DNA of 64,000 nucleotides from positions 1-64,000 of the forward strand of contig NZ_JACJMB010000006.1 in assembly GCF_016902615.1 (NCBI RefSeq). The letters are read 5' to 3'. This stretch comes from Collinsella tanakaei (GTDB lineage: Bacteria > Actinomycetota > Coriobacteriia > Coriobacteriales > Coriobacteriaceae). Positions 4,376 to 25,348 of the stretch are shown piece by piece. The notes under the pieces were generated by a model, which saw only the letters and a program-made list of their open reading frames with translations, did no database searches and was not told where the DNA came from. The first letter of the stretch is position 1; every line of letters begins with the position of its first letter. A program made the translations under genes and the position numbers.

Positions 4376-4400
4376 TTGCCCCGTCCCCGATGGAGACACG
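4376..4400. repeat. Partial copy of the dispersed palindromic repeat
   Basis: Only the outer right-arm end is present: GCCCCGTCCCCGATGGAGAC. It matches the CCCCGTCCCC core plus the GATGAGGACA tag of the fuller copies at 1-82 and 38466-38520, with one changed base in the tag. It sits between tRNA-Arg and the aro operon promoter region. Confidence 0.5.
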
Positions 4401-4452
4401 TGTCATGGCGGTTAAGAAATCAGTCGGACACAGGCCGGTGTCCGCGCGTTGG

Positions 4453-4460
4453 TATACACT
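4453..4460 (+). promoter_or_regulatory. Possible -10 element of the aro operon
   Basis: TATACACT lies 42 bases before the aroF start in an otherwise GC-rich gap. No convincing -35 box is seen at the right spacing, so this is a weak call resting on the -10 alone. No T-box, TRAP or other leader signal was recognised upstream of aroF. Confidence 0.35.
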
Positions 4461-4501
4461 GCTCTGCTACACATACCATACCCGCAAACGATAGGAGACC
4501 C

Positions 4502-5521
4502 ATGATCGCCATTCTGCGCAACAGCGCATCAGACGAGGCCGTCGGCCACCTCATATCGTGGATCGAGGGCAAGGGCCTCACCACGCATGTTTCCCGTGGC
4601 GAAAACGAGATCGTCATCGGCCTCGTGGGCGACACGACCCGCATCGACCCGTTCTTGCTCGAATCCATGGATATCGTCGAGCGCGTCCAACGCGTTTCCG
4701 AGCCCTTCAAGAAGGCGAACCGCAAGTTCCACCCGACCGACACCGTCGTCGACTGCGGCCACGGCGTGAAGATCGGCGGCGGCCACTTCCAGGTCATCGC
4801 CGGACCCTGCTCGGTCGAGGGCAGAAACCTCATCGACATCGCACGCCGCGTACACGCCGCGGGCGCCACGATGCTGCGCGGCGGCGCCTTCAAGCCCCGC
4901 ACCTCCCCGTATTCCTACCAGGGCATGGGCGAGGCGGGCCTCGACCTTCTGCTCGAGGCCGGATCTGAGCTCGATATGCCCGTCGTGACCGAGATCATGG
5001 ACCCCCGCGATGTCGAGCTGTTCGTGGACCGCGGCGTCGACGTCATGCAGATCGGCGCGCGCAACGCGCAGAACTTCAGCCTGCTGAAGGAGGTCGGCCG
5101 CACCAAGACGCCTGTCCTGCTGAAGCGCGGCATGTCCGGCACCGTCGATGAGCTCCTCATGGCCGCCGAGTACATCATGAGCGAGGGCAACGACAACGTC
5201 ATCCTGTGCGAGCGCGGCATCCGCACGTTTGAGACGCGCACGCGCAACACGTTCGACCTGAACGCCGTGCCGGTCCTCCACTACCTGTCGCATCTGCCCG
5301 TCGTCGCGGACCCAAGCCATGCGACCGGCTATACGCGCTATGTCGAGCCGATGGCGCTCGCTGCCTGCGCCGCCGGGGCGGACGGCCTCGAGATCGAGGT
5401 CCACGACTGCCCAGAGAAGGCCTGGTCCGACGGCGCCCAGGCGCTGACGCCCGATCAGTTCGACCGTACGATGGAGCGCATCCGGGCCATCCGCTTCGTC
5501 ATCGCTGAAGACCATGAGTAG
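4502..5521 (+). CDS. aroF: 3-deoxy-7-phosphoheptulonate synthase (DAHP synthase, type I-beta)
   Basis: Catalyses the first step of aromatic biosynthesis, joining phosphoenolpyruvate and erythrose-4-phosphate. The protein has 339 residues. The ATG at 4502 has AGGAG a few bases upstream, and starting here gives the N-terminus MIAILRN typical of the family. Residues 1-70 form the ferredoxin-like regulatory domain known from the Thermotoga-type enzyme, which in that family mediates feedback control by Tyr/Phe. The barrel follows with IAGPCSVEG, RGGAFKPRTSPYS, QIGARNAQNF, LLKRG, CERGIRTFE and DPSHATG, which carry the substrate and metal contacts. It is the first gene of the eight-gene aro operon; its stop overlaps tyrA by 8 bases. 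Confidence 0.96.
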   Translation: MIAILRNSASDEAVGHLISWIEGKGLTTHVSRGENEIVIGLVGDTTRIDPFLLESMDIVERVQRVSEPFKKANRKFHPTDTVVDCGHGVKIGGGHFQVIAGPCSVEGRNLIDIARRVHAAGATMLRGGAFKPRTSPYSYQGMGEAGLDLLLEAGSELDMPVVTEIMDPRDVELFVDRGVDVMQIGARNAQNFSLLKEVGRTKTPVLLKRGMSGTVDELLMAAEYIMSEGNDNVILCERGIRTFETRTRNTFDLNAVPVLHYLSHLPVVADPSHATGYTRYVEPMALAACAAGADGLEIEVHDCPEKAWSDGAQALTPDQFDRTMERIRAIRFVIAEDHE

Positions 5522-6434
5522 CGACCAGCAAGCCCGGGGCCTGAGCGTCGGCATCGTCGGGTTGGGACTCATCGGCGGCAGCTTCGCCCGCGCCTATGCG
5601 GCCGCCGGCGCGCGCGTCTTCGCGTTCGATCCCAATGAGGACACGATGGGGGCCGCGCGGGTGGAGACGGTGGCCGGCGAGTTCGACGACACGACGGTGC
5701 CCTGCTGCGACCTGATCGTGCTCGCCGCCTATCCGCAGGCCTGCCTCACCTGGCTGCACGACCATGCGGAGCTGCTCGGCAGCATCTCCGACCCTGCACG
5801 CGGAACGGGACCTGTGGTGATCGACACGGCAGGCGTCAAGACGGCGGTCTGCCGCGAGGCGTTCGCCCTTGCAGCGCAGCACGGTTTCGCCTTCGTCGGC
5901 GTCCACCCCATGGCGGGTACGGAGAACTCGGGGTTCGCCTATGCCCGCGCCGACCTCTTCCGCGGTGCCCCGGTCGTGCTCACGCCCCCTGCGCTCGACG
6001 ACATCTCCCGCCTCATGCTCCTCGACCGCGTGCACACGCTGCTCGCCCCGGCCGGTTTCGGGACCTACAGCGTCACGACCCCCGAGGAGCACGACGCCGT
6101 CATCGCCTTCACGAGCCAGCTCGCGCACGTGGTGTCGAACGCCTACGTGAAGAGCCCGACCGCCCAGGAGCACCATGGCTTCTCGGCGGGCAGCTATCGC
6201 GACCTGACGCGCGTCGCGCACCTGAACGCGCCCATGTGGGCCGAGCTCATGCTCGACAACGCGGACAACCTGAGTCGGGAGATCTCGATGCTGATCGACG
6301 CCCTCGCGGCCTATCGCGATGCGCTCGATGCCGGCGATTTCGAGCGCCTGCGCATGCTGCTCGCCGAGGGTGACCGCATCAAGCGCGCCCTCGATGACGC
6401 ACGGGACGACGAGTCGGAATACGAGGGGAAGTAG
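5514..6434 (+). CDS. tyrA: Prephenate dehydrogenase
   Basis: Oxidatively decarboxylates prephenate to 4-hydroxyphenylpyruvate with NAD(P)+ for tyrosine synthesis. The protein has 306 residues. The N-terminal Rossmann motif GLGLIGGSFARAY is at about 15-27. HPMAGTENSG, the conserved His-Pro-Met-Ala-Gly stretch of the active site, follows. The C-terminal half is the helical dimerisation domain, with SAGSYRDLTRVA. There is no C-terminal ACT domain, so feedback control within this protein is not evident. The start overlaps aroF by 8 bases, suggesting coupled translation. Confidence 0.94.
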   Translation: MSSDQQARGLSVGIVGLGLIGGSFARAYAAAGARVFAFDPNEDTMGAARVETVAGEFDDTTVPCCDLIVLAAYPQACLTWLHDHAELLGSISDPARGTGPVVIDTAGVKTAVCREAFALAAQHGFAFVGVHPMAGTENSGFAYARADLFRGAPVVLTPPALDDISRLMLLDRVHTLLAPAGFGTYSVTTPEEHDAVIAFTSQLAHVVSNAYVKSPTAQEHHGFSAGSYRDLTRVAHLNAPMWAELMLDNADNLSREISMLIDALAAYRDALDAGDFERLRMLLAEGDRIKRALDDARDDESEYEGK

Positions 6435-6440
6435 GCAGCC

Positions 6441-7532
6441 ATGCACACCATTGACGTCAACACGGGACGCCCCTATCGCGTCCATGTCGGGACCTTTCTG
6501 CTCGAGCGCGTCGGCGAGACGTGCCGCGAGGTCGCCGGCGGCGAGCGCGCCTGCATCGTGACGGACACCAACGTCGGCCCGCTGTACGCAAATCCCGTCC
6601 GCCAGGGCCTGGCCGAGGCGGGCTATGAGGTCGACATCTTCACCTTCGAGGCGGGCGAGGCGAACAAGCGCGCCGGCACCTACATCTCGATCCTCGAGTT
6701 CCTCGCCGAGCGCGCCTACACGCGCTCCGACGTCGTCGTCGCCCTCGGCGGCGGCGTGACGGGTGATATGGCGGGCTTCGCCGCGGCGACCTACATGCGC
6801 GGCTGCGCCTATGTCCAGGTCCCGACGAGTCTGCTCGCCATGGTCGACTCCTCGGTGGGCGGCAAATGCGCCATCGACCTCTCGTCCGGCAAGAACCTCG
6901 CCGGCGCGTTCTGGCAGCCCGCGGCGGTGCTCGCAGACATCGGCTGCCTCGCGACGCTCGATGACGCCCAGTTCGCCGACGGCTGCGGCGAGGTCGTGAA
7001 ACACGCGGCCATCGCCGATCCCGACCTGTTCTGCGCGCTCGAGCGCACGCCCCTCACCCCCGAGCTGCTGCGCGAGAACGTGCCACTCGTCGAGGAGCTC
7101 GTCGCGCGCAACATCGACATCAAGCGCGCGGTCGTCGAGATGGACGAGCGCGAGACCCAGGCGCGCAAGCTCCTGAACTTCGGGCACAGCATCGGCCACG
7201 CCGTCGAGGCGAGCGAGAACTACCGTCTCGGCCACGGAACCTGCGTCGCCATCGGCATGACGGCGATCTCGCGCGCCGCGGCCGCACTCGGCGCATGCGA
7301 TACGACCGTGCCGGAGCGCATCGAGACTGCCTGCGCCGCCCACGGCCTGACGACGCGTACCGAGCGCACCCTCGACGAGATCTTCGACGCCGCGCTCCAC
7401 GACAAGAAGCGCCACGGGGACACCATCGATGTGGTCATCCCCCGCCGGATCGGCGCCTGCTCCATCGAAACGGTATCCCTGGCAACATTCCGCGACCTCA
7501 TCGCCGAGGGAATCGGCGCGAAAGGAAAGTGA
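6441..7532 (+). CDS. aroB: 3-dehydroquinate synthase
   Basis: Cyclises DAHP to 3-dehydroquinate, using NAD+ and a divalent metal. The protein has 363 residues and all key positions are intact: the NAD-binding GGGVTGD (103-109), DSSVGGK (136-142), metal ligands Glu184 (GCGEVVKH), His249 (NFGHSIGH) and His265. This is the functional copy; a second, degenerate AroB-like protein is encoded at 21540-22646. The stop codon shares one base with the aroA start (TGATG). Confidence 0.96.
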   Translation: MHTIDVNTGRPYRVHVGTFLLERVGETCREVAGGERACIVTDTNVGPLYANPVRQGLAEAGYEVDIFTFEAGEANKRAGTYISILEFLAERAYTRSDVVVALGGGVTGDMAGFAAATYMRGCAYVQVPTSLLAMVDSSVGGKCAIDLSSGKNLAGAFWQPAAVLADIGCLATLDDAQFADGCGEVVKHAAIADPDLFCALERTPLTPELLRENVPLVEELVARNIDIKRAVVEMDERETQARKLLNFGHSIGHAVEASENYRLGHGTCVAIGMTAISRAAAALGACDTTVPERIETACAAHGLTTRTERTLDEIFDAALHDKKRHGDTIDVVIPRRIGACSIETVSLATFRDLIAEGIGAKGK

Positions 7533-8860
7533 TGGCATCCATGCTCGCCCGCATCCACCCGACCCCGCTTTCCGGTACCGTCCCCGCGATCGCGTCGAAA
7601 TCGATGGCGCACCGCCTCATCATCGCCGCGGCCCTCTCGAGCGGCACGACCCATGTCATCTGCAACACGACCTGCGCCGACATCGAGGCGACCGTGCGCT
7701 GCCTCTCCGCCCTCGGCGCGCGCATCGAGACGGTCGATGACGGGTTCGAAGTGCACCCCGTCCCCAAGAGCATCGAGCTCGGGATCTTGAAGGCGTTCCA
7801 GGGGGTGACGCTCGACTGCGGGGAATCGGGCAGCACGCTTCGCTTCATGCTCCCCGTCGCCTGCGCCCTCGGCGCCAACGCCCGCTTCATCGGGGCCGGG
7901 CGCTTGGGCCAGCGCCCCTTGTCGCCCCTATCCGACGAGCTCATGGCAGCCGGCTCCTCGATCGCCGGGCAGGGCGGTTTCCCGCTCACCTGCGAGGGCC
8001 GCATGCGCCCCGGGCACTTCGTGCTGTCCGGCAACGTGAGCTCGCAGTTCATCTCCGGTCTGCTCCTGGCGTTCCCGCTGCTGCCCGGCTCGAGCGACAT
8101 CGAGGTGCGCGGCCGCATCGAGAGCCGCCCGTACATCAACCTCACGATTCAGGCGCTCAAGCTCTTCGGCGTCGACATCGCCGTCGAGCGCTCCATCGCG
8201 CCGAACGGCATCGACGAGATGACGACGTTTCGCTTCGCAAACACGCCGTACCGCACGCCCGGCGAGGTCACCGTCGAGGGCGACTGGTCGAACGCGGCGT
8301 TTTGGCTGTGCGCCGGCGCCCTGTCGACCGCGCCGGTCGAGGTGAGCGGCATCTCGCTCACCTCCGCGCAGGGCGACCGCAATGTTCTCGCGGCCCTCTC
8401 GCGCTTCGGAGCCCGCACGAAGCGCGCGCCGCAGGCCGCCATCGTCGAGCCCGACGGGCTGCATGCGTTCTCGATGAGCGCCCAGGACATCCCCGACCTC
8501 GTCCCCATCATCGCCGCCGTCGCCTCCTGCGCGGAAGGAACGACCATCATCAAGGACTGCGCGCGCCTGCGCATCAAGGAGTCCGACCGTCTCGCCACGA
8601 CCGCCTCGGAGCTCTGCGCGCTCGGCGCACGCGTCGTCATCGACCACGACAGCCTCGTGATCCACGGTCAGCCCACCTTGACCGGCGGTACGGTGGACGC
8701 GCACAACGACCACCGCATCGCCATGATGGCCGCCATCGCCGCCGAGCGCTGCGAGGGCGATGTCCTCATCCACGGCGCCGAGGCGGTCAACAAGTCGTAT
8801 CCGACGTTCTTCGAGCACTACCGCATGCTCGGCGGGCGCGTCGAGCTCATCGAGGAGTAG
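7532..8860 (+). CDS. aroA: 3-phosphoshikimate 1-carboxyvinyltransferase (EPSP synthase)
   Basis: Transfers the enolpyruvyl group of PEP to shikimate-3-phosphate. The protein is 442 residues, the usual length. The ATG at 7532 overlaps the aroB stop, and GAAAGGAAAG precedes it. Family motifs are KSMAHR near the N-terminus (Lys and Arg contacts to substrate), GESGSTLRFMLP, RPLSPLSDEL, GDWSNAAFW, RIKESDRL and NDHRIAMM. The sequence GESGSTLRF resembles the class with Gly-Glu-Ser-Gly at the PEP site. The next gene, aroC, starts 4 bases after the stop. Confidence 0.95.
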   Translation: MASMLARIHPTPLSGTVPAIASKSMAHRLIIAAALSSGTTHVICNTTCADIEATVRCLSALGARIETVDDGFEVHPVPKSIELGILKAFQGVTLDCGESGSTLRFMLPVACALGANARFIGAGRLGQRPLSPLSDELMAAGSSIAGQGGFPLTCEGRMRPGHFVLSGNVSSQFISGLLLAFPLLPGSSDIEVRGRIESRPYINLTIQALKLFGVDIAVERSIAPNGIDEMTTFRFANTPYRTPGEVTVEGDWSNAAFWLCAGALSTAPVEVSGISLTSAQGDRNVLAALSRFGARTKRAPQAAIVEPDGLHAFSMSAQDIPDLVPIIAAVASCAEGTTIIKDCARLRIKESDRLATTASELCALGARVVIDHDSLVIHGQPTLTGGTVDAHNDHRIAMMAAIAAERCEGDVLIHGAEAVNKSYPTFFEHYRMLGGRVELIEE

Positions 8861-8864
8861 GCCC

Positions 8865-10004
8865 ATGGCCTCAGTATTCGGACATTCCCTGACGCTTTCG
8901 GTCTTCGGCCAGTCGCACTCCCCCGCCATCGGCTGCACCCTCGACGGCCTGCCGGCGGGTATCCCCCTCGACGTCGAGGAGCTGCAGCGGTTTTTGGCCC
9001 GCCGCGCCCCGGGACGCTCAGCTACCGCCACGACGCGCAAGGAGGCGGATCGCCCCGAGATCCTCTCGGGTATCACCGACGGGCACACGAACGGCGCACC
9101 GTTTTCGGCCATCATCCGCAACACCAACACGCGCTCCCAGGACTATGCCGAGCTCAGGCGCATCCCGCGCCCCGGACACGCCGACTATCCCGCGCGCGTG
9201 AAGTACGCGAACCAGCACGACGTGGCGGGCGGCGGCCACTTCTCGGGCCGCCTTACCGCCCCTGTCTGCATCGCCGGCGGCCTGTGCCTGCAGGCCCTCG
9301 AGCGCGCAGGCGTGCACGTCGTGGCGCATATCGCCCAACTCGGCGTCGACCGCATCGCCGACGAGGCGCTCGATTCGCTCCGCTATCGTCCCGAGCAGCG
9401 CGCGGCGATCCGCGCGAACGCGCTGCCGACGATATCGGATACCGCGGCCGAGCAGATGACCCAGGTGATCCTCGCGGCGAAGTCCGAGCTCGACAGCGTG
9501 GGCGGCATCATCGAATGCGCCGCATACGGCATGCCCACCGGCGTCGGCGACCCCATGTTCGACGGCATCGAGAACCGTATCGCGCAAGCCGCCTTCGGCA
9601 TTCCCGCCGTAAAGGGCGTCGAGTTCGGCGCGGGGTTCGGCGCGGCGGCGCTCACGGGCAGCGAGAACAACGACCCCTACCGCATGGAGGACGGCCGCAT
9701 CGCCCCGCAGACGAACAACGCCGGCGGCATCCTCGGCGGCATCACGACCGGTGCCCCCATCATCTGGCGCATGGCCGTCAAGCCGACCCCCTCCATCGGG
9801 CGCACGCAGATGAGCGTCGACATGGACGCCGGCGAGAACAGCGACCTCAAGGTGCGCGGTCGGCACGATCCCTGCATCGTTCCGCGCGCCGTGCCCGTCG
9901 CTGAGGCCGTATGCGCCCTCGCGCTCGTCGACGCCCTGCTCGACGACGGCTTCGCGCATCTTTTCGCCGACGCGCAAGCATCCCCATCGACCGATATCGA
10001 CTAA
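8865..10004 (+). CDS. aroC: Chorismate synthase
   Basis: Converts EPSP to chorismate; the family needs reduced FMN. The protein has 379 residues. The ATG at 8865 follows GAGGAG, which lies in the end of aroA, so translation is likely coupled. Motifs seen: GHSLTLSVFGQSHSPAIG at the start, GRSATATTRKEAD, RPGHADYPARVKY, GGGHFSGRLTA, NNAGGILGG and GRHDPCIVPRA. All are standard for the family. Confidence 0.96.
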   Translation: MASVFGHSLTLSVFGQSHSPAIGCTLDGLPAGIPLDVEELQRFLARRAPGRSATATTRKEADRPEILSGITDGHTNGAPFSAIIRNTNTRSQDYAELRRIPRPGHADYPARVKYANQHDVAGGGHFSGRLTAPVCIAGGLCLQALERAGVHVVAHIAQLGVDRIADEALDSLRYRPEQRAAIRANALPTISDTAAEQMTQVILAAKSELDSVGGIIECAAYGMPTGVGDPMFDGIENRIAQAAFGIPAVKGVEFGAGFGAAALTGSENNDPYRMEDGRIAPQTNNAGGILGGITTGAPIIWRMAVKPTPSIGRTQMSVDMDAGENSDLKVRGRHDPCIVPRAVPVAEAVCALALVDALLDDGFAHLFADAQASPSTDID

Positions 10005-10019
10005 ACCCAGAGGAGCACC

Positions 10020-11165
10020 ATGGACCTCGCGGACATCAGAACACGAATTGACGAGATCGACAACGGCATCCTGGCGCTGTTCGCCGAGCGCATGGAGCTT
10101 GCCGCCGACGTCGCCGCCTCGAAGCGCGCGACCGGCAAGGCCGTCTTCGACCCGGCGCGCGAGCGCGACAAGCTCTACCGCCTCGTCACGGCGGCGCCTG
10201 ACGCCATCAAGCCTGAGGTCGCGAGCCTGTTCTCCCTCCTCATGAGCATGAACAAGGCAGCGCAGCTCAAGATTCTGAACGCGGACCGGACGGACAGCGC
10301 CGCTGCGCAGGCGAAAGCGGCCCTTCTGGCCCAGGACACGCCCTTCCCCATGACGGCGACGGTCGCCTGCCAGGGCGTCGAGGGCGCCTACAGCCAGATC
10401 GCCGCCTGCCGCCTGTTCTCCACGCCGAAGATCACGTTCCACCCCACGTTCGAGGGCGTGTTCCGCGCGGTTCGCGACGGCGCATGCGAATACGGCGTGC
10501 TGCCGATCGAGAACTCGACCGCAGGCTCCGTGAACGCCGTGTACGACCTGCTCGCCGAGTACCGGTTCTCCATCGTCCGGTCGCTGAGGCTGAAGATCGA
10601 CCACCAGCTGCTCGCCAAGCCCGGCGTCGCGCTTGCGGATGTCCATGAGGTTTTCTCGCATGAGCAGGCCATCGCCCAGTGCTCTGAGCTCCTCGACCGC
10701 CTCGGCGTGCGCGTGCACGTGTGCGAGAACACCGCGCGCGCCGCCGAGCTCGTGGCCACGAGCGACCGCACCGACATCGCGGCGCTCTCCTCGCGAAGCT
10801 GCGCGGCCCTCTACGGTCTCGACGTGCTTGCGAAGGACGTCCAGGACGAGGGCAACAACTACACCCGCTTCGTGGTGATCTCCGCCACCCCGCAGGTGTT
10901 TCCCGGAGCGACCCGGACCTCGCTCATGGTCACGCTGCCGCATGCCCCCGGCGCCCTCTACCGGGTGCTCGAGCGGCTCTACGCCCTCGACATCAACCTC
11001 GTCAAGCTCGAAAGCCGCCCCATCCCCAACCGCGACTTCGAGTTCCTGTTCTACTTCGACCTCGACTGCCCGTATGGCAGCCCCGCGCTCGACACGCTGC
11101 TCGATGCGCTCGATGACGTCTGCGAGCGCTACACCTACATCGGCTCGTATACGGAGGTGGTCTAG
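10020..11165 (+). CDS. pheA: Bifunctional chorismate mutase / prephenate dehydratase (P-protein)
   Basis: Rearranges chorismate to prephenate and dehydrates it to phenylpyruvate. The protein has 381 residues. The N-terminal helical AroQ-type chorismate mutase spans about 1-85 (IDEIDNGILALFAERM). The dehydratase domain spans about 110-285, with GVEGAYSQIAA, LPIENSTAGSV and NYTRFVVI. A C-terminal ACT domain spans about 295-378, containing ALYRVLERL and ESRPIPN, the phenylalanine-binding ESRP site of the family. Feedback inhibition by Phe is therefore expected. The ribosome site AGAGGAG precedes the ATG. The mutase here also supplies prephenate for tyrA. Confidence 0.95.
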   Translation: MDLADIRTRIDEIDNGILALFAERMELAADVAASKRATGKAVFDPARERDKLYRLVTAAPDAIKPEVASLFSLLMSMNKAAQLKILNADRTDSAAAQAKAALLAQDTPFPMTATVACQGVEGAYSQIAACRLFSTPKITFHPTFEGVFRAVRDGACEYGVLPIENSTAGSVNAVYDLLAEYRFSIVRSLRLKIDHQLLAKPGVALADVHEVFSHEQAIAQCSELLDRLGVRVHVCENTARAAELVATSDRTDIAALSSRSCAALYGLDVLAKDVQDEGNNYTRFVVISATPQVFPGATRTSLMVTLPHAPGALYRVLERLYALDINLVKLESRPIPNRDFEFLFYFDLDCPYGSPALDTLLDALDDVCERYTYIGSYTEVV

Positions 11166-12425
11166 ATGGCACCGTCCGCACCCTACGGCGTGCTCGGGCG
11201 CACGCTCGGCCACAGCTACACGCCGATCATCTACCGCGAGCTTGCGGGCCTTGACTATGTGCGCTTCGAGCGCGAGCCCGATCAGCTCGAGGCGTTTCTT
11301 GCCGGCGACGAGTGGGCGGGCGTGAACGTCACGATCCCCTATAAGCGCGCAGTCATCCCCTACCTTTCGGAGCTGAGCGACATCGCCCGCAGGCTCGGCA
11401 ACGTGAACACCATCACCCGCCTGCCCGACGGCGGGCTGCGCGGCGACAACACGGATTATTTCGGCTTCCAGATGCTCGTTGAATCGCTCGGCATCGAGCT
11501 TTCCGGCGCCCGGGCGCTCGTCCTCGGCGGCTCGGGCGGAGCCGGCACGACGGCGCGATGCGTGCTGGAGGACCTGGGCGCCGAGGCGATCTCGGTCGGG
11601 CGCACGGGGGCGGTGACCTATGACGATCTTGACGGCTACCGCGACGTCGACCTCATCGTCAACTGCACGCCCGTCGGCATGTATCCGGCCTGCCCCGCCT
11701 CGCCCATCGCCCTCGAGGGCTTCACCGAGCTCTCCGCCGTCATCGACATCGTGTACAACCCTGCGCGCACGGGCATCATGATGCAGGCGGAACGGCTCGG
11801 CATCCCCAGCGCCGGCGGCCTCATGATGCTCGTTGCGCAGGCGGCGGCCGCCGTCGAGCGCTACATCGGCACGCCACCCGATCGCGCGCAGGTGCGCGAG
11901 CTCACCTGCGCCCTGTCCGCCACCGAGCAAAACATCGCCTTCATCGGCATGCCGGGTAGCGGCAAGACGCGCGTGGGCCAGCAGGTGGCCGCCCTGCTCG
12001 GGCGCACCCACGTGGACGCGGACGCTGCCTTCGAAAAGCGCTGTGGCATGCCCGCGGGCGCCTACATCACCGCATATGGGGAGGAGGCGTTCCGTCGCGA
12101 GGAGACCGCCTGCCTGGAGGAGCTTGGACGCAGATCCGGCATCGTCATCTCCTGCGGCGGCGGCGTCGTGACGCGCCCGGAGAACTACGCGCTGCTGCAT
12201 CAGAACAGCATGATCGTGATGCTGAACCGGCCGCTGAACGAGCTCTCCTCGAAGGGGCGCCCTATCAGCGCCCGCGACGGCGTGGAGAAGCTCGCGGCGG
12301 AGCGCATGGACCTCTACCGCGCTTGGGCGGACCTCATCGTCGATTCGCGCGACTGCGCCCCGGCGACCGCACGCGCCGTCTTAGAGTTCCTGCCGCGCAT
12401 GCTGGACGACACCCGCGAGAACTAG
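11166..12425 (+). CDS. aroE/aroK: Shikimate dehydrogenase - shikimate kinase fusion
   Basis: One 419-residue chain carries two consecutive pathway steps. Residues 1-250 are AroE: GHSYTP at the shikimate site, NVTIPYK with catalytic Lys60, GDNTD with Asp97, the NADP loop GGSGGAG at 121-127, and NCTPVGM. Residues 255-419 are a shikimate kinase: P-loop GMPGSGKT (261-268), DADAAFEKRCGM (metal and shikimate Asp), EEAFRREE, and CGGGVV. The start codon directly abuts the pheA stop. A complete separate shikimate kinase is encoded at 22643-23176, so kinase activity is duplicated. Both halves look intact. Confidence 0.93.
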   Translation: MAPSAPYGVLGRTLGHSYTPIIYRELAGLDYVRFEREPDQLEAFLAGDEWAGVNVTIPYKRAVIPYLSELSDIARRLGNVNTITRLPDGGLRGDNTDYFGFQMLVESLGIELSGARALVLGGSGGAGTTARCVLEDLGAEAISVGRTGAVTYDDLDGYRDVDLIVNCTPVGMYPACPASPIALEGFTELSAVIDIVYNPARTGIMMQAERLGIPSAGGLMMLVAQAAAAVERYIGTPPDRAQVRELTCALSATEQNIAFIGMPGSGKTRVGQQVAALLGRTHVDADAAFEKRCGMPAGAYITAYGEEAFRREETACLEELGRRSGIVISCGGGVVTRPENYALLHQNSMIVMLNRPLNELSSKGRPISARDGVEKLAAERMDLYRAWADLIVDSRDCAPATARAVLEFLPRMLDDTREN

Positions 12426-19520: not shown

Positions 19521-20084
19521 TTAGACGCGGGAGACGAACTTGCCGTCGCGGGTGTCGACCTTGATCTTCTCGCCCACGTTGAGGTACATGGGGACCTGGA
19601 TGGTCGCGCCGGTCTCGATGACAGCGGGCTTCGTGCCGCCCTGGACGGTATCGCCCTTGAAGCCGGGATCGGTCTCGGTGACCTCGACCTCGATGAACAT
19701 CGGCGGGTTGACGCCCATGAGCTCGTCATCGGCGTACAGGAGCTGGCAGACGTCGTTCTCCTTGAGCCACTTGGCGTTGTCGCCGATGAAGTCCACCGGG
19801 ACGGGGATCTGGTCGTAGGTCTCCATGTTCATGAAGTAGTAGTGATTGCCGTCGTTGTAGAGATACTGCATCTCGGTCGTGGTGAGCGTGACGCTCTCGA
19901 ACTTGGTGCCGGCGTTGCAGGTGTTCTCGACGACGCGGCCGGTCTTGATGTCCTTGGTCTTGTAGCGAACGAAGGCGCCGCCCTTGCCGGGCTTGACGTG
20001 CTGGAACTCAACGATGGTGTAGACCTTGTCCTTGATGCGAAGACCGAGGCCGTTCTTGAAATCAGCGGTGGTGATGGATGCCAT
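19521..20084 (-). CDS. efp: Elongation factor P
   Basis: Relieves ribosome stalling at polyproline stretches. The protein has 187 residues, three beta-barrel domains. The tip loop reads KPGKGGAF, with Lys34 at the position that is lysylated or otherwise modified in other bacteria. No modifying enzyme gene (epmA/epmB/earP type) is seen in the window, which fits the actinobacterial pattern in which Lys34 can act unmodified. AAAGG precedes the ATG. It is followed by a strong terminator and preceded by a 241-base gap with its own -10-like box. Confidence 0.96.
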   Translation of the reverse strand: MASITTADFKNGLGLRIKDKVYTIVEFQHVKPGKGGAFVRYKTKDIKTGRVVENTCNAGTKFESVTLTTTEMQYLYNDGNHYYFMNMETYDQIPVPVDFIGDNAKWLKENDVCQLLYADDELMGVNPPMFIEVEVTETDPGFKGDTVQGGTKPAVIETGATIQVPMYLNVGEKIKVDTRDGKFVSRV

Positions 20085-20127: not shown

Positions 20128-20325
20128 CGACAGATGGCAGATGCTGCACGAAATGCAACAGAACCTGCACCGATGCCGGTGCGGGTACGCAACGGCACCC
20201 GACGAGCGCCGGCCGCGCGGCGACCATACGGCAGCATGTCCGCATGGCCCATGCGCCGACGGAACGCGTGGGCTACCGATGCGATCGCCTGCCGCACGGT
20301 CGCACAAGGCCTTTCGCGGACCGTC

Positions 20326-21456
20326 CTAGCAATCGATGACCTGCAGCTCATGGGACGACTTCGTGAAGGGCTCGTAGCCGTCCTCGGTGACCAGGCCGTA
20401 GTCCTCCAGGCGCACGCCGCCGACACCGGGCAGGTACACGCCGGGCTCCACGGTGATGACCGAACCGGCCTCCACGATGTTGCTCGTACGGCCGAAATTC
20501 GGCAGCTCGTGGATGTCGATGCCCACGCCGTGGCCGAGGCCATGGCCGTAGCAGTCCCCATAGCCCGCGTCCGAGATGATCTTGACGGAGAGCATATGGA
20601 TGTCGCGCCCGTCGACTCCCGCATGGATGGCGGCGACGCACTCCTCATGGGTGCGGCGGACGAGGTCGTAGAGGGCGCGCTGCTCGTCCGTGGGCTCGCC
20701 GAGCACGACGGTGCGCGTCATGTCCGAATCGTAATCGCGGTAGCGCGCGCCGTAGTCCATGAGGACGAAGTCGCCCTTCTCGACGACGCGGTCGCTCGGA
20801 ACCGCGTGGGGGTTTGCGGAGTTGGGGCCGGAGGCGACGATGGAATCGAAGGCGAGGCCGTCGGCGCCGTTGTTCAGCATGAAGCTCTCGAGCTCGGTGC
20901 GGATCTGCTTCTCGGTCAGGCCCGGGCGGATGAACTCGAGCATATGTGCGAAGGCGGCGTCGGTGATGGACTGAGCGCGGCGCATGAGCTCGATCTCCTC
21001 GGCGTCCTTGACGGCGCGCATGCGGCGTATGTCGCCGTGCATCTGCGGCAGGGCGACGGCGATAGAGCGATCCTCGAGGCCGCGCACGATTCCCTGGTAG
21101 AAGCTGAGCTGCATGTCGTCCTCGATGGCGACGGTACGGCAGCGCGCATCGAGGGCGTGCTGGGCCACCCAGCCGGGGATATCGTGGCCGTCCATGTCGA
21201 CGGCCCAGGGGCTTCCCTCGGGCAGGTTCTCCTGGAAGCTGTTGAAATAGCGCGAGTCGGTGTGCAGATAGCAGCCATCGGCTGTGATGAAGGCCGCATG
21301 CGGGAACTCATAGGTGTAGTCGAACACGCCGGTGGCACCGGTGAGCCACCTCAGATTCGCCTCGTCGCGCACGACGACGGCGTCGTAGCCGCGCTCCTCC
21401 ATCATCGCGCGCACGCGCGCGATACGGCCTGCAGGTCCACTCAAACGATCGGTCAT
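20326..21456 (-). CDS. pepP: Xaa-Pro aminopeptidase (M24B family)
   Basis: Removes N-terminal residues that precede proline. The protein has 376 residues. The ATG at 21456 has GAAAGGAG upstream. The creatinase-like N-terminal domain spans about 1-130 ([19 protein letters not shown]). The pita-bread catalytic domain carries the metal ligands: Asp in [10 protein letters not shown], Asp in [10 protein letters not shown], His in [14 protein letters not shown], Glu in VEPGVYLPG and Glu in [11 protein letters not shown]. The aroB-pepP(Q)-efp neighbourhood is conserved in many Gram-positive bacteria. Confidence 0.93.
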
Positions 21457-21539
21457 GAATTGCTCCTTTCTCAGGGCGTTGAGGATAGGCTCCCCTGTCA
21501 TATGTTGAAGATGCGAGATCGAGAGCGCAAGTCGAGACG

Positions 21540-22646
21540 CTATTCGTCACAGGCAAGCTCGCGACGGGACGCCAAGAAGGCCTCCGCATGCCGCTCGAGC
21601 AGCTCGGAGTCGATGGCGCACAGCCGGATGGCGCCGGGGAACCGCGGAAGCGAGAGCATCAGGCGGTTCGAGCGCGCGAAACGCTCCGCCTTGATGGCCT
21701 CGCAGAAGCGAGCGGGCTCGAGGTCGAACGCAAGCTCCTCGATACCGAGATCCTCGAGGCGGTCATCGATCTCGAAGATGGTGTCGACATCAAGGTTGCA
21801 CACGTCGTGCGCCAGGCGCGACTCGAACCGGATGCCCTCGGCAAGCAGGCGGTACCACGGCACGCCGTCCCCCAGGCACGCGCGCAGGGCGCACGCCGTC
21901 GTGTGCCCGAAGAGATAGGCGGAGCGCGACGACGGATTCGCCGAGCGGATCGCGCTGCTGCGGGCCGACTGGGCGTTGCAGAGCGCATCGGCGAAGGCCA
22001 CCGCGTCCTTGGAAACCATGCCCTCGATCTTCTCGGCGAACTGCTCCCAGATACGACGGCTCTGGGAGAAAGCGGAGGTGAGCAGCTGCACATAGCCCGC
22101 GCCCAGCGCGTCGATATCGGCGCCGACAACGAGATCCAGGTCGCAGACGACCATATCCCAGCCGGGAGTCAAAGTAAGCGCGTCCTCGACGCCGGCCACA
22201 TCGAGTGCGCGCATCGACGTGGCGACGGTGCACATGGCCTCGAGCGTGCAGGCCACCGCGACACTCGACATGCCGCCGCGCCACATCTTGGCGCAGAAGG
22301 CGACAACGGAGCAGACATCGGTGTCGCCGAGGGCGACGATCAGGTCGTCGGACGTAAGACCGTGCTCAGCGAGCTTGGCGAACACGAGCTCTGCGGTGGC
22401 GAGGTCGCGCACGGAATCGCGCTCGGCGACAGAGAGACTCTCGACAGCAAACCCGTTATCGATCAGCGCGCGGCGAAGCTCCCGGCGCAGCTCGGTGGAA
22501 GCCATCCCGTCGTCGACGACAAGTGCGCGCTTCGGGGCGCCCACGACATGCTTCAGGAGACCGGGGAGCTCCCCGGCCGCGTTCAGGCCGACGCGAAAGT
22601 CAGTGGTGCTCGACCCGAAGTTCACAAGCAGGCGGCGGACGCTCAT
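21540..22646 (-). CDS. AroB-like protein lacking 3-dehydroquinate synthase catalytic residues
   Basis: A 368-residue protein whose position (after aroK, before pepP-efp) is that of aroB in many Gram-positives and whose overall layout fits the dehydroquinate synthase fold. Key motifs are lost: GGGVTGD is replaced by GDTD (107-110), the metal-ligand Glu of GCGEVVKH is replaced by Tyr in LGAGYVQL (181-188), and only one His of the metal site remains recognisable (LFGHTTA, His248). A functional aroB lies in the aro operon at 6441-7532. The reading frame is full length and its start overlaps aroK by 4 bases, so it is probably translated. It may be a decaying paralogue or a protein with a new role. 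Confidence 0.75.
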   Translation of the reverse strand: MSVRRLLVNFGSSTTDFRVGLNAAGELPGLLKHVVGAPKRALVVDDGMASTELRRELRRALIDNGFAVESLSVAERDSVRDLATAELVFAKLAEHGLTSDDLIVALGDTDVCSVVAFCAKMWRGGMSSVAVACTLEAMCTVATSMRALDVAGVEDALTLTPGWDMVVCDLDLVVGADIDALGAGYVQLLTSAFSQSRRIWEQFAEKIEGMVSKDAVAFADALCNAQSARSSAIRSANPSSRSAYLFGHTTACALRACLGDGVPWYRLLAEGIRFESRLAHDVCNLDVDTIFEIDDRLEDLGIEELAFDLEPARFCEAIKAERFARSNRLMLSLPRFPGAIRLCAIDSELLERHAEAFLASRRELACDE

Positions 22647-23176
22647 ATCAGACCACGCTCCAAAAGCAATTCGGCACAGAGGTAGGAGACCTCGGTGAAG
22701 GTTTTATCACGGATATCGACCGTCAGGTCGGCGGCGCGCCGGTACAGCGGCCGGCGATGCTCGAGCAGGCGGGTCGCATGCTCGATGGACCGGAAATCGG
22801 GACGGGTGTCGCGGCGGCGGATCTGGCGCAGCGAATCATCGATATCGCCATCGAGGTAGACGCAAAAGCCCATCTCCCGCATCAGGGAGATGTTGCAGGG
22901 CGTCTCAACGATACCACCACCGCAGGAGACGAGCAGGCTCCGCTCGCATCTCAAAGATTCGAGCACCTCGGTCTCGAGCTCGCGGAAGCGCGCCTCGCCG
23001 TCGCGCTCGAAGATGCAGCGCACCGTCATCCCCTGCCGGCGCTCGACGAGCCGGTCGGTATCGACAAAGCGGCGATTGAACATCATGCCGAGATTGCGGG
23101 CGAGCGTCGACTTGCCCGCACCGAGAAACCCGATGAAGAAGATATGGTCGCACCCGCGCTTCACCGCCCGCTGCAT
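22643..23176 (-). CDS. aroK: Shikimate kinase (second copy, stand-alone)
   Basis: A 177-residue protein with a complete shikimate kinase motif set: P-loop GFLGAGKS near residues 16-23, FVDTDRLVERRQGMTV (Mg and shikimate Asp), GEARFRELE (shikimate Arg), CGGGIV, and RPLYRRAAD in the lid region. AGGAG is nine bases before the ATG. The other kinase is the C-terminal half of the AroE fusion. Being next to the AroB-like gene, with 4 bases of overlap, this looks like the ancestral aroK-aroB locus. Confidence 0.88.
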   Translation of the reverse strand: MQRAVKRGCDHIFFIGFLGAGKSTLARNLGMMFNRRFVDTDRLVERRQGMTVRCIFERDGEARFRELETEVLESLRCERSLLVSCGGGIVETPCNISLMREMGFCVYLDGDIDDSLRQIRRRDTRPDFRSIEHATRLLEHRRPLYRRAADLTVDIRDKTFTEVSYLCAELLLERGLI

Positions 23177-23182
23177 ACGCGC

Positions 23183-23680
23183 CTACTCCTCGCAGGGCAC
23201 GTTGCGCAGGGCGCGGCGCTCGAAGATGCGGAAGATCTGCGTGTACCAGAGGTCGACCGTCGTCTGCGGCTTGACGAGAATCGTCTCCACGCCGGCGAGC
23301 TTGCCCGCGAGGACGTCGGTATAGAGCTGGTCGCCGATGAGCACCGCCTCGCCGGGCGCGGCCCCCATGCGGCGCAGGGCCGCGCTGATGGCGAACGGCG
23401 CGGGTTTCATGGCATGGCTGATAGCAGAGAGCCCGAGCTCGGAAGCGGAGCGCATGACCTGGTCGCGATGCCAGTTGTTCGACACCATGTACAGCGAGAA
23501 CCCGAGGGCGCGGGCGCGCTCGAGCCAGGCAGAGACCTCCTTCGGCGCGCAGGCGGCATCGCGCGGCACGAGTGTGTTGTCGCGGTCGAGCATGATGGCG
23601 CGCTTACCCTGTGCGCGCAGGTCGTCAAGGTCGATACGGTCGACCGACGAGACGTAGCGATGGGGCGAAAGCAAACTCAT
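23183..23680 (-). CDS. YqeG-family HAD phosphatase (subfamily IIIA)
   Basis: A 165-residue protein with the HAD motif I LDRDNTLVPR (residues 31-40, nucleophile Asp), motif II SNNW, and motif III plus acidic pair IGDQLYTDVLAG. The family is related to the mitochondrial phosphatidylglycerophosphate phosphatase GEP4, but bacterial members are mostly uncharacterised. The start overlaps the mltG stop by 4 bases, so it is part of the alaS-to-pepP run. Confidence 0.88.
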   Translation of the reverse strand: MSLLSPHRYVSSVDRIDLDDLRAQGKRAIMLDRDNTLVPRDAACAPKEVSAWLERARALGFSLYMVSNNWHRDQVMRSASELGLSAISHAMKPAPFAISAALRRMGAAPGEAVLIGDQLYTDVLAGKLAGVETILVKPQTTVDLWYTQIFRIFERRALRNVPCEE

Positions 23681-24927
23681 TGATGCGACTCCGAATACTC
23701 CTGGCTATCACGTTCGAACTGCTCGTAATCGGAGCTGAAGCGGTGCGTGCCGTCGCCATCGGGAGACGCCACGTAATACAGGTAGTCGGTGTCCGACGGA
23801 TTGAGGGCGGCCTCGATCGAGGAGACGGAGGGGCTGCAGATGGGCCCGGGCGTGAGCCCGAGGTTCTGGTAGATGTTGTAGGGCGAATCGATCTCGAGAT
23901 CATCGTAGGTGACCGGATCGCTGCCGCCGCCGCGGGCGTAGACGATGGCCGCATCGATCTGCAGCGGCATATCGATGGCCAGGCGGTTGTACATGACGCT
24001 CGCCACGAGCGGCCGCTCATCGGCAACTGCGGTCTCGCGCTCGATAAGGGAGGCCATCGTCACGATATCGTGGGCGGACAGGCCCGTGGGCGCGTTATCG
24101 AGACCCAGGGAGGCCGTCTCGGCCTGGAACTGATCGAGTAGTGTGCGGATCACCTGATCGGCAGTCGGCTGCTCCGAGAAGGAGTACGTCTTGGGGTAGA
24201 GGTAACCTTCCAGGGAGTCATCGTAAGCGCCCTCGAGGAACGGATAGTCCGCCACGTAGTTCGAGGCCTTGGCCTGCGCGATGAACTCATCGGCCGGGAT
24301 GCCGAGCGTCTCCTCGACGCGCGCGGCGGTCTGGGCGACCGTCAGGCCCTCTTGGATGGTAAGGGTGATGCCCTCGACATTCGGGCCCTCGACGAGCTGG
24401 GTGACGACCGAGGCGGGATCCTGCCCGGTCGTGAGGATGTAATCGCCCGGCTTGATCGACATGGCGGCATCCGCCGCCTCGACGGCCGCGTAATAGGCCT
24501 TCGGGTTATCGATGATGTGATTTTGCGCGAGGATCTGCGCGATGTCGTCACCGGAGGATCCCTCGGGGATGTTCAGCTGGACCTCTTGGCCCGCCGCGAC
24601 CGTTTCGGCCTGAGCGCCGAAGATGGCATCGTGAACGGTGGGGACGACAACGAAGCAGACGACGATGAGAATGATGGCGATGATGACGCCGCCGACGATA
24701 GCGGGTACCGGAGAGGTTCGCTGCTGGGTGCGCCGAGCGTGCGGACGCGGGGCTTGAACCGCCGGGCGCGGGGTGGCCGTCCTGGTGCCCCGCGGCGCTG
24801 CGGTTGACCTTTGCGCGCCCTCGCGTCCAGCAGGCTCGCGAAACCGCTTGCCCGCGGGGCGCTGAGTTGATGTCGACGCAGTCGATGTCTGGGAACGGCG
24901 CGGTGCGCGACCGTCATTCGGCGCCAT
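23677..24927 (-). CDS. mltG: Endolytic murein transglycosylase MltG
   Basis: Cuts nascent glycan strands at the membrane and helps set peptidoglycan strand length. The protein has 416 residues from the ATG at 24927, preceded by GAAAGGA. A cytoplasmic Arg/Thr-rich N-terminus of about 80 residues is followed by one membrane segment (IVGGVIIAIILIVVCFVVVP), a LysM-like region, and the YceG catalytic domain with EGYLYPKTYSF, MASLIERET (catalytic Glu) and LQIDAAIVYA. It overlaps ruvX by 14 bases. The ruvX-mltG order is widespread. Confidence 0.93.
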   Translation of the reverse strand: MAPNDGRAPRRSQTSTASTSTQRPAGKRFREPAGREGAQRSTAAPRGTRTATPRPAVQAPRPHARRTQQRTSPVPAIVGGVIIAIILIVVCFVVVPTVHDAIFGAQAETVAAGQEVQLNIPEGSSGDDIAQILAQNHIIDNPKAYYAAVEAADAAMSIKPGDYILTTGQDPASVVTQLVEGPNVEGITLTIQEGLTVAQTAARVEETLGIPADEFIAQAKASNYVADYPFLEGAYDDSLEGYLYPKTYSFSEQPTADQVIRTLLDQFQAETASLGLDNAPTGLSAHDIVTMASLIERETAVADERPLVASVMYNRLAIDMPLQIDAAIVYARGGGSDPVTYDDLEIDSPYNIYQNLGLTPGPICSPSVSSIEAALNPSDTDYLYYVASPDGDGTHRFSSDYEQFERDSQEYSESHQ

Positions 24928-25348
24928 GTTCATCCTTTCGGTCCTGGGCATCAAGCCACGCCTGCAAAAAGAGCGATGCGGCGACCATATCCACCTTGCC
25001 GCGCATCTTCCGCTCGGTAAGGCCCTTTTCACGCAGGATGCGCTTCGCCTCGCGCGAGGACAGCCGCTCATCGGCGAAGACGACGGGCAGGTCGAGGGCG
25101 CGCCCGATCTCGCGCGCGGTCGCCATCACGCGTTCAGCCTGGGGACCGTCCGTGCCCGCCATGGTCTGCGGACGGCCACAGACCAAAACGTCGGGCTCAT
25201 GGTCCTCCACGATCTGCCTGAAGCTGCGCGCGATGTGCACGACCTCGGTCGCGGGCAGCACCTTGACGGGCATCGCCACGCGACCGGAGCGGTCGGAGAC
25301 GGCGATGCCCACGCGGACATCGCCGATATCGAGAGCGAGCGCGACCAC
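24914..25348 (-). CDS. ruvX: RuvX/YqgF-family Holliday junction resolvase
   Basis: A 144-residue RNase H-fold nuclease thought to act on Holliday junctions or in pre-16S rRNA maturation. Motifs are ALDIGDVRVGIAVSD (catalytic Asp) at the start, VCGRPQTMAGTDGPQAERV, VFADERLSSREA (catalytic Glu/Arg) and KVDMVAASLFLQAWLD. The start is GTG, two bases after the alaS stop, with only a weak ribosome site, so its translation probably depends on alaS. The alaS-ruvX order is conserved in many bacteria. Confidence 0.9.
   Translation of the reverse strand: MVALALDIGDVRVGIAVSDRSGRVAMPVKVLPATEVVHIARSFRQIVEDHEPDVLVCGRPQTMAGTDGPQAERVMATAREIGRALDLPVVFADERLSSREAKRILREKGLTERKMRGKVDMVAASLFLQAWLDAQDRKDEHGAE

Follow-up and report, generated by a model that had tools for sequence, protein, structure and literature searches.

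A putative pseudoenzyme derived from 3-dehydroquinate synthase in the aroB slot of Coriobacteriaceae and Atopobiaceae

Results

The window, by which we mean the whole stretch of 64,000 nucleotides of Collinsella tanakaei that was analysed, carries on its minus strand a gene cluster with the order mltG-yqeG-aroK-AroB'-pepP-efp. Within this cluster lies an open reading frame of 368 aa (21540..22646, -). We call its product AroB', a protein of the 3-dehydroquinate synthase (DHQS) fold without NAD motif, metal ligands and catalytic residues, as judged from the reading frame, family matches, alignment and predicted structure. Its start codon overlaps the stop codon of aroK (ATGA). The shikimate kinase gene aroK of this slot (22643..23176, -; PF01202, 128 bits) encodes a protein with intact active-site residues, and a homoserine-kinase-like match to the same protein stays below the cut-off. 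Further upstream follow a gene for a YqeG-like HAD-family phosphatase (23183..23680, -; PF13242/PF09419), and a gene for an MltG/YceG-like protein (23677..25071, -; PF02618, 270 bits). A pepP-like gene for an M24 peptidase (20326..21501, -; PF00557) is located directly downstream of AroB', followed by the elongation factor P gene efp (19521..20084, -; PF01132/PF08207/PF09285). The first-pass annotation had assigned the gene to the classical slot aroK-aroB-pepP-efp and described it as full length with an open frame, and both descriptions hold. On the plus strand opposite pepP and AroB' (20134-22685), long antisense reading frames of 594 and 365 aa are present, as expected in GC-rich DNA.

AroB' is only distantly recognized by models of its family. 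It matches Pfam PF01761 with 27.7 bits, barely over the cut-off of 24.2, and the NCBIfam model aroB (TIGR01357) with 50.4 bits, far under the cut-off of 305; three relatives reach 48-68 bits against the latter model. For the C-terminal domain DHQS_C (PF24621), AroB' gives no match at E<=1, whereas the AroB encoded in the aro operon of the window matches at 120 bits. Named relatives of the protein are found in Collinsella and Enorma and, further out, in Olsenella, Thermophilibacter and Eggerthellaceae.

The operon copy is the normal aroB that the first-pass annotation had reported. This canonical gene (6441..7532, +) scores 343.7 bits against TIGR01357, above the cut-off, and its product keeps 20 of 20 active-site residues. 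According to Pfam, the surrounding aro operon (4376..12425, +) encodes DAHP synthase, prephenate dehydrogenase, AroB, EPSP synthase, chorismate synthase, chorismate mutase-prephenate dehydratase and an aroE::aroK fusion. The fusion is a single reading frame (11166..12425, +) that recurs in other Coriobacteriaceae and Atopobiaceae, where the operon has a similar order. The order DAHPS-tyrA-aroB-aroA-aroC-pheA-aroE::aroK is found in most of the 19 operon loci fetched, some of which are cut by contig ends or short of genes.

We scored 20 active-site and cofactor positions by alignment, with the roles of the pocket residues assigned by the numbering of A. nidulans DHQS and not from coordinates. 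AroB' of the window matches at three of the 20. The NAD-binding motif GGGVxGD is replaced by GDTDVCS, in agreement with the replacement of GGGVTGD by GDTD noted earlier. The metal-ligand positions (Glu, His, His) are occupied by Gln187, H248 and Trp264. The Glu position does not hold the Tyr that had been annotated; this Tyr lies two residues earlier. The single plain His ligand of that annotation is indeed present as H248, but this position varies among relatives. The equivalent of the catalytic His275 is Cys252.

This loss extends to most of the coriobacterial relatives at the same locus, with which an alignment had been proposed. Removal of duplicate sequences left 115 of 159 rows, operon AroB included. 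Of the 20 active-site residues, 1-5 remain in 89 of the 114 distinct slot proteins, 19-20 in another 23 and 13-14 in two. Among the 89 degenerate proteins, two of which (L050 and L131) come from outside Coriobacteriaceae and Atopobiaceae, 78 retain none of the metal ligands, nine retain one and two retain two. The 23 intact proteins come from Eggerthellaceae and further families within the order. With all three metal ligands in 0/89 proteins on the one side and 23 proteins intact at 19-20 of 20 on the other, the degeneracy is not a matter of chance. The loss of the active site is old and clade-wide and not a feature of one strain. Judged by its residues, AroB' cannot be a DHQ synthase. In Candida Aro1, replacing the metal-binding His residues abolished DHQS activity (PMC9074039).

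Phylogenetic analysis of 82 AroB proteins unites the degenerate copies from Coriobacteriaceae and Atopobiaceae in a single clade (SH-aLRT 96) and places the operon AroBs outside the slot family, with further AroBs of actinobacteria (100). This tree comes from a quick search without bootstrap and is rooted only for display. Several Eggerthellaceae have the gene order mltG-yqeG-aroE-aroC-aroK-aroB-pepP-efp in this cluster, and aroE and aroC are absent from it in the 24 loci compared from Coriobacteriaceae and Atopobiaceae. Tree and gene order together indicate that one AroB displaced another. Relatives whose protein at this locus has its catalytic residues intact, which the first-pass annotation had named as counter-evidence, do exist in Eggerthellaceae and allied families. 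On the tree, however, they represent the ancestral state and are not evidence against loss.

AroB' is retained almost throughout both families. Searched with an alignment of degenerate proteins, 63 of 65 Coriobacteriaceae genomes yield a near-full-length copy, the exceptions being G027 (72% complete) and G170, in which the locus is scrambled. For Atopobiaceae the count is 133 of 140 genomes, made by hand and requiring a single match that spans 298 or more of the 368 positions. Four of the remaining genomes (G084, G085, G291 and G077) have AroB' as two model pieces inside one reading frame; G304 has it at a contig end, G089 has it interrupted and G090 lacks it. A split gene in G084 and G085 was considered and rejected, as a single 436-aa reading frame contains both pieces in frame. 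For the loci that were translated, apparent internal stops were likewise discarded, as the matches only ran past the terminal stop. The loci of G170 (L283) and G089 (L281) are surrounded by extra mltG and yqeG stretches; either assembly error or real rearrangement accounts for them, and neither locus was counted as intact. In the Atopobiaceae copies L037 and L275, the open reading frames include putative N-terminal extensions that are acidic and Pro/Glu-rich.

Two genomes keep AroB' without a detectable shikimate pathway. In G177, which is assembled in one contig and 99% complete, no aroC, aroE, DAHP synthase or canonical aroB was detected, and aroA matches only below the cut-off, like the second aroA match of the window's genome. 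This genome keeps the slot aroK together with AroB'. In G077 (1.0 Mb), neither aroC, aroE, DAHP synthase and canonical aroB nor aroA above the cut-off or a shikimate kinase was detected; here a strongly diverged AroB' with ~20% identity is kept between yqeG and pepP. A third candidate, G029, was not counted as pathway-less: its kinase and aroE pieces lie within a 24,363-residue frame that is probably a run of unknown bases. The slot aroK adjoins AroB' in 87 of 89 degenerate loci, and these 87 kinases all carry the Walker Lys, D34, R58, R117 and R136, with the remaining active-site residues present in 85-87. In 13 Atopobiaceae loci (11 of 15 loci of one set, plus G077 and G291), aroK is absent between yqeG and AroB' and the AroB' reading frame is kept. 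Retention of AroB' depends neither on the shikimate pathway nor on the neighbouring kinase. The converse loss is seen in G090, where both slot genes, aroK and AroB', are gone and the aro operon is kept, so that AroB' is dispensable in this genome.

The first-pass annotation had suggested a test for purifying selection, and by simple Nei-Gojobori counts dN/dS of AroB' is ~0.10 among close species. In 14 genomes of the C. aerofaciens group, the median is 0.098 for AroB' (91 pairs), compared to 0.064 for the operon aroB, 0.046 for the slot aroK and 0.027 for pepP. In 15 named loci we obtain 0.102 for AroB' (104 pairs), 0.116 for yqeG and 0.100 for mltG. Values are higher in the tanakaei-like group (0.29 at a dS of 1.15) and in the genus lacking aroK, with 0.19-0.41 among five genomes and 0.58-0.72 against a sixth (L270), where pepP is raised too.

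Residue conservation was analysed in 66 degenerate sequences, 33 per family. To obtain this set, 18 near-identical rows of the C. aerofaciens group were dropped, and the odd or partial rows L049, L050, L092, L093, L116, L117 and L131 were also left out. The 17 lost positions have a mean entropy of 2.23 bits, compared to 1.85 for the other 344 positions (p 0.037), which indicates that the former active site can vary freely. At the same time, W122, R273, R277, D294, R341 and H353 are invariant in 66/66 sequences. In the former pocket, R229 (equivalent to K250) is found in 63/66 and R241 (equivalent to R264) in 64/66; codons 229-241 span these kept or conservatively replaced positions (21924..21962, -, computed from the start codon). 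R273 is present in 23/23 intact slot AroBs and in 0/48 other AroBs, and R273, F274, R277 and D294 are common to AroB' and the intact slot AroBs. Most of the invariant residues persist in the AroB' copies without aroK and in G177.

The DHQS fold is intact in the AlphaFold model of AroB' (pLDDT 95.2, pTM 0.93), the structural check that had been proposed. The model superimposes on DHQS 5eks with a Z-score of 40.3 and an rmsd of 2.5 over 352 residues; it was built from an alignment including intact AroBs, which favours the DHQS fold. The diverged G077 copy also has a confident predicted fold (pLDDT 86.8).

Discussion

AroB' combines clade-wide loss of catalytic residues with purifying selection and a conserved predicted fold, the hallmarks of a pseudoenzyme. 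We class it as such and not as AroB, the absence of activity being deduced from its residues. The first-pass annotation had left the choice between a new function and recent decay. Decay is contradicted by a dN/dS of ~0.10, by frames open across two families and by the intact predicted fold, while a new or retained function other than DHQ synthesis is supported. Retention in G177 and G077 without the pathway, and in 13 loci without aroK, points to such a role, and we regard it as very likely that AroB' is a selected non-DHQS protein.

Probably, AroB' descends from an ancestral AroB that was displaced by the operon AroB and became a selected pseudoenzyme with a role outside DHQ synthesis. It would represent the ancestral AroB of the order, still residing in the old cluster mltG-yqeG-aroE-aroC-aroK-aroB-pepP-efp. 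In the ancestor that Coriobacteriaceae and Atopobiaceae share, the pathway would have passed to a separate aro operon, which brought an aroB of its own and the aroE::aroK fusion, and aroE and aroC would afterwards have left the old cluster. The old AroB would then have kept its fold but not the residues that bind NAD, metal and phosphate, and would now persist as a pseudoenzyme under selection. The intact slot AroBs of Eggerthellaceae and allies (e.g. L042, from the family of Paraeggerthella) share with AroB' the cluster, the side of the tree and R273/F274/R277/D294. They differ in keeping 19-20 of the 20 active-site residues, and L042 scores 354.5 bits against TIGR01357.

As to what AroB' does, a non-catalytic binder or scaffold is the reading that we favour on balance. 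Within what was once the substrate pocket, the Arg pair R229/R241 would hold a small carboxylate or another anion, and the protein would serve a housekeeping process instead of DHQ synthesis. We infer a role as an anion-binding scaffold or regulator. A further reading, which we put forward tentatively, is that the AroB of the order had a second, non-catalytic job before catalysis was lost. Only this older job, marked by R273, R277 and D294, would have been left after the operon took over, and it would matter enough to outlast the loss of the whole pathway.

The main rival is a new enzyme, in which the DHQS fold was rebuilt for an NAD- and metal-independent reaction using W122, R229, R241, R273, R277, D294, R328, R341 and H353. 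The many invariant charged residues across two families would fit such an active site. However, R273, R277 and D294 are shared with the intact slot AroBs and thus do not obviously mark a new one, and the structures listed as closest to the AroB' model are enzymes whose annotation includes NAD, metal or both, or apo forms of such enzymes. We consider a new enzyme unlikely. Less probable still is that AroB' acts as a scaffold or allosteric subunit of the slot shikimate kinase in an AroK-AroB' complex. The start-stop overlap, the adjacency in nearly all degenerate loci and the nearly invariant active site of the kinase are what a partnership would leave behind, but the 13 Atopobiaceae loci keep the AroB' frame with no aroK beside it, and G177 keeps both genes without any found use for shikimate 3-phosphate.

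There is very little to recommend AroB' as a prozyme, that is, a dead homologue that regulates the operon AroB by forming heterodimers with it. An operon AroB is encoded in most genomes that have AroB', and DHQS is a dimer (PMC9074039). An active paralogue is not always present, however, since AroB' is kept in G177 and G077 without operon AroB, and the two proteins sit on distant branches of the tree. That AroB' is a decaying, functionless relic of the displaced aroB is barely credible: displacement by the operon aroB is apparent, dN/dS lies above that of pepP and aroK and the gene was lost in G090, but dN/dS is near 0.1, frames are open in nearly all of the 205 genomes, even the diverged G077 copy is predicted to fold with confidence and non-catalytic residues are invariant.

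Compared to 3-dehydroquinate synthase AroB (TIGR01357; 5eks, 3okf), the putative pseudoenzyme AroB' retains the whole-length predicted fold, the length, the equivalent of R264 and the gene slot, but it has no NAD motif, metal site or catalytic Lys/His and stays far below the family cut-off. The fungal activator QUTA contains DHQS- and EPSPS-like domains, with the DHQS-like domain reused for regulation. AroB' can be likened to QUTA by this general description, although QUTA is fused and fungal. Another parallel is the DHQase domain of Candida albicans Aro1, which is described as inactive, with its catalytic residues lost, the domain kept and the activity coming from another protein (PMC9074039). 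Both are shikimate-pathway proteins kept after loss of catalytic residues with the activity supplied elsewhere. However, the Aro1 domain is a different enzyme with a different fold and part of a fusion, while AroB' stands alone, occurs in two bacterial families and is kept in two pathway-less genomes. The sugar phosphate cyclases EEVS, DDGS and DOIS (2gru, 4p53, 5tpr) also combine a DHQS-related fold with changed function; they are catalytic and use the three metal-ligand positions that AroB' has lost (PMC4426668, PMC5133447).

We found no earlier account of AroB' in the one open library searched, which was covered for Collinsella and Coriobacteriia, DHQ synthase, pseudoenzymes and sugar phosphate cyclases. 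AroB' offers a bacterial, stand-alone case of an enzyme that would have turned into a pseudoenzyme after its activity came from another gene. Family searches place it with DHQ synthase in many gut bacteria, and counting it as AroB would introduce an error into pathway reconstructions. Natural knock-outs exist for the pathway (G177, G077), for the neighbouring kinase (13 loci) and for AroB' itself (G090), so that the cause of selection for AroB' can be tested directly.

Outside Coriobacteriaceae and Atopobiaceae, losses are seen in single genomes. L050 and L131 keep 2-3 of the 20 active-site residues, L049 keeps 14 and L117 keeps 13. The latter two may represent losses still under way in other parts of the order. 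L131 (Eggerthellaceae MAG UW_TS_EGG1_1), with 3/20 residues in its slot AroB and with aroC and aroK still present, apparently lost the active site independently.
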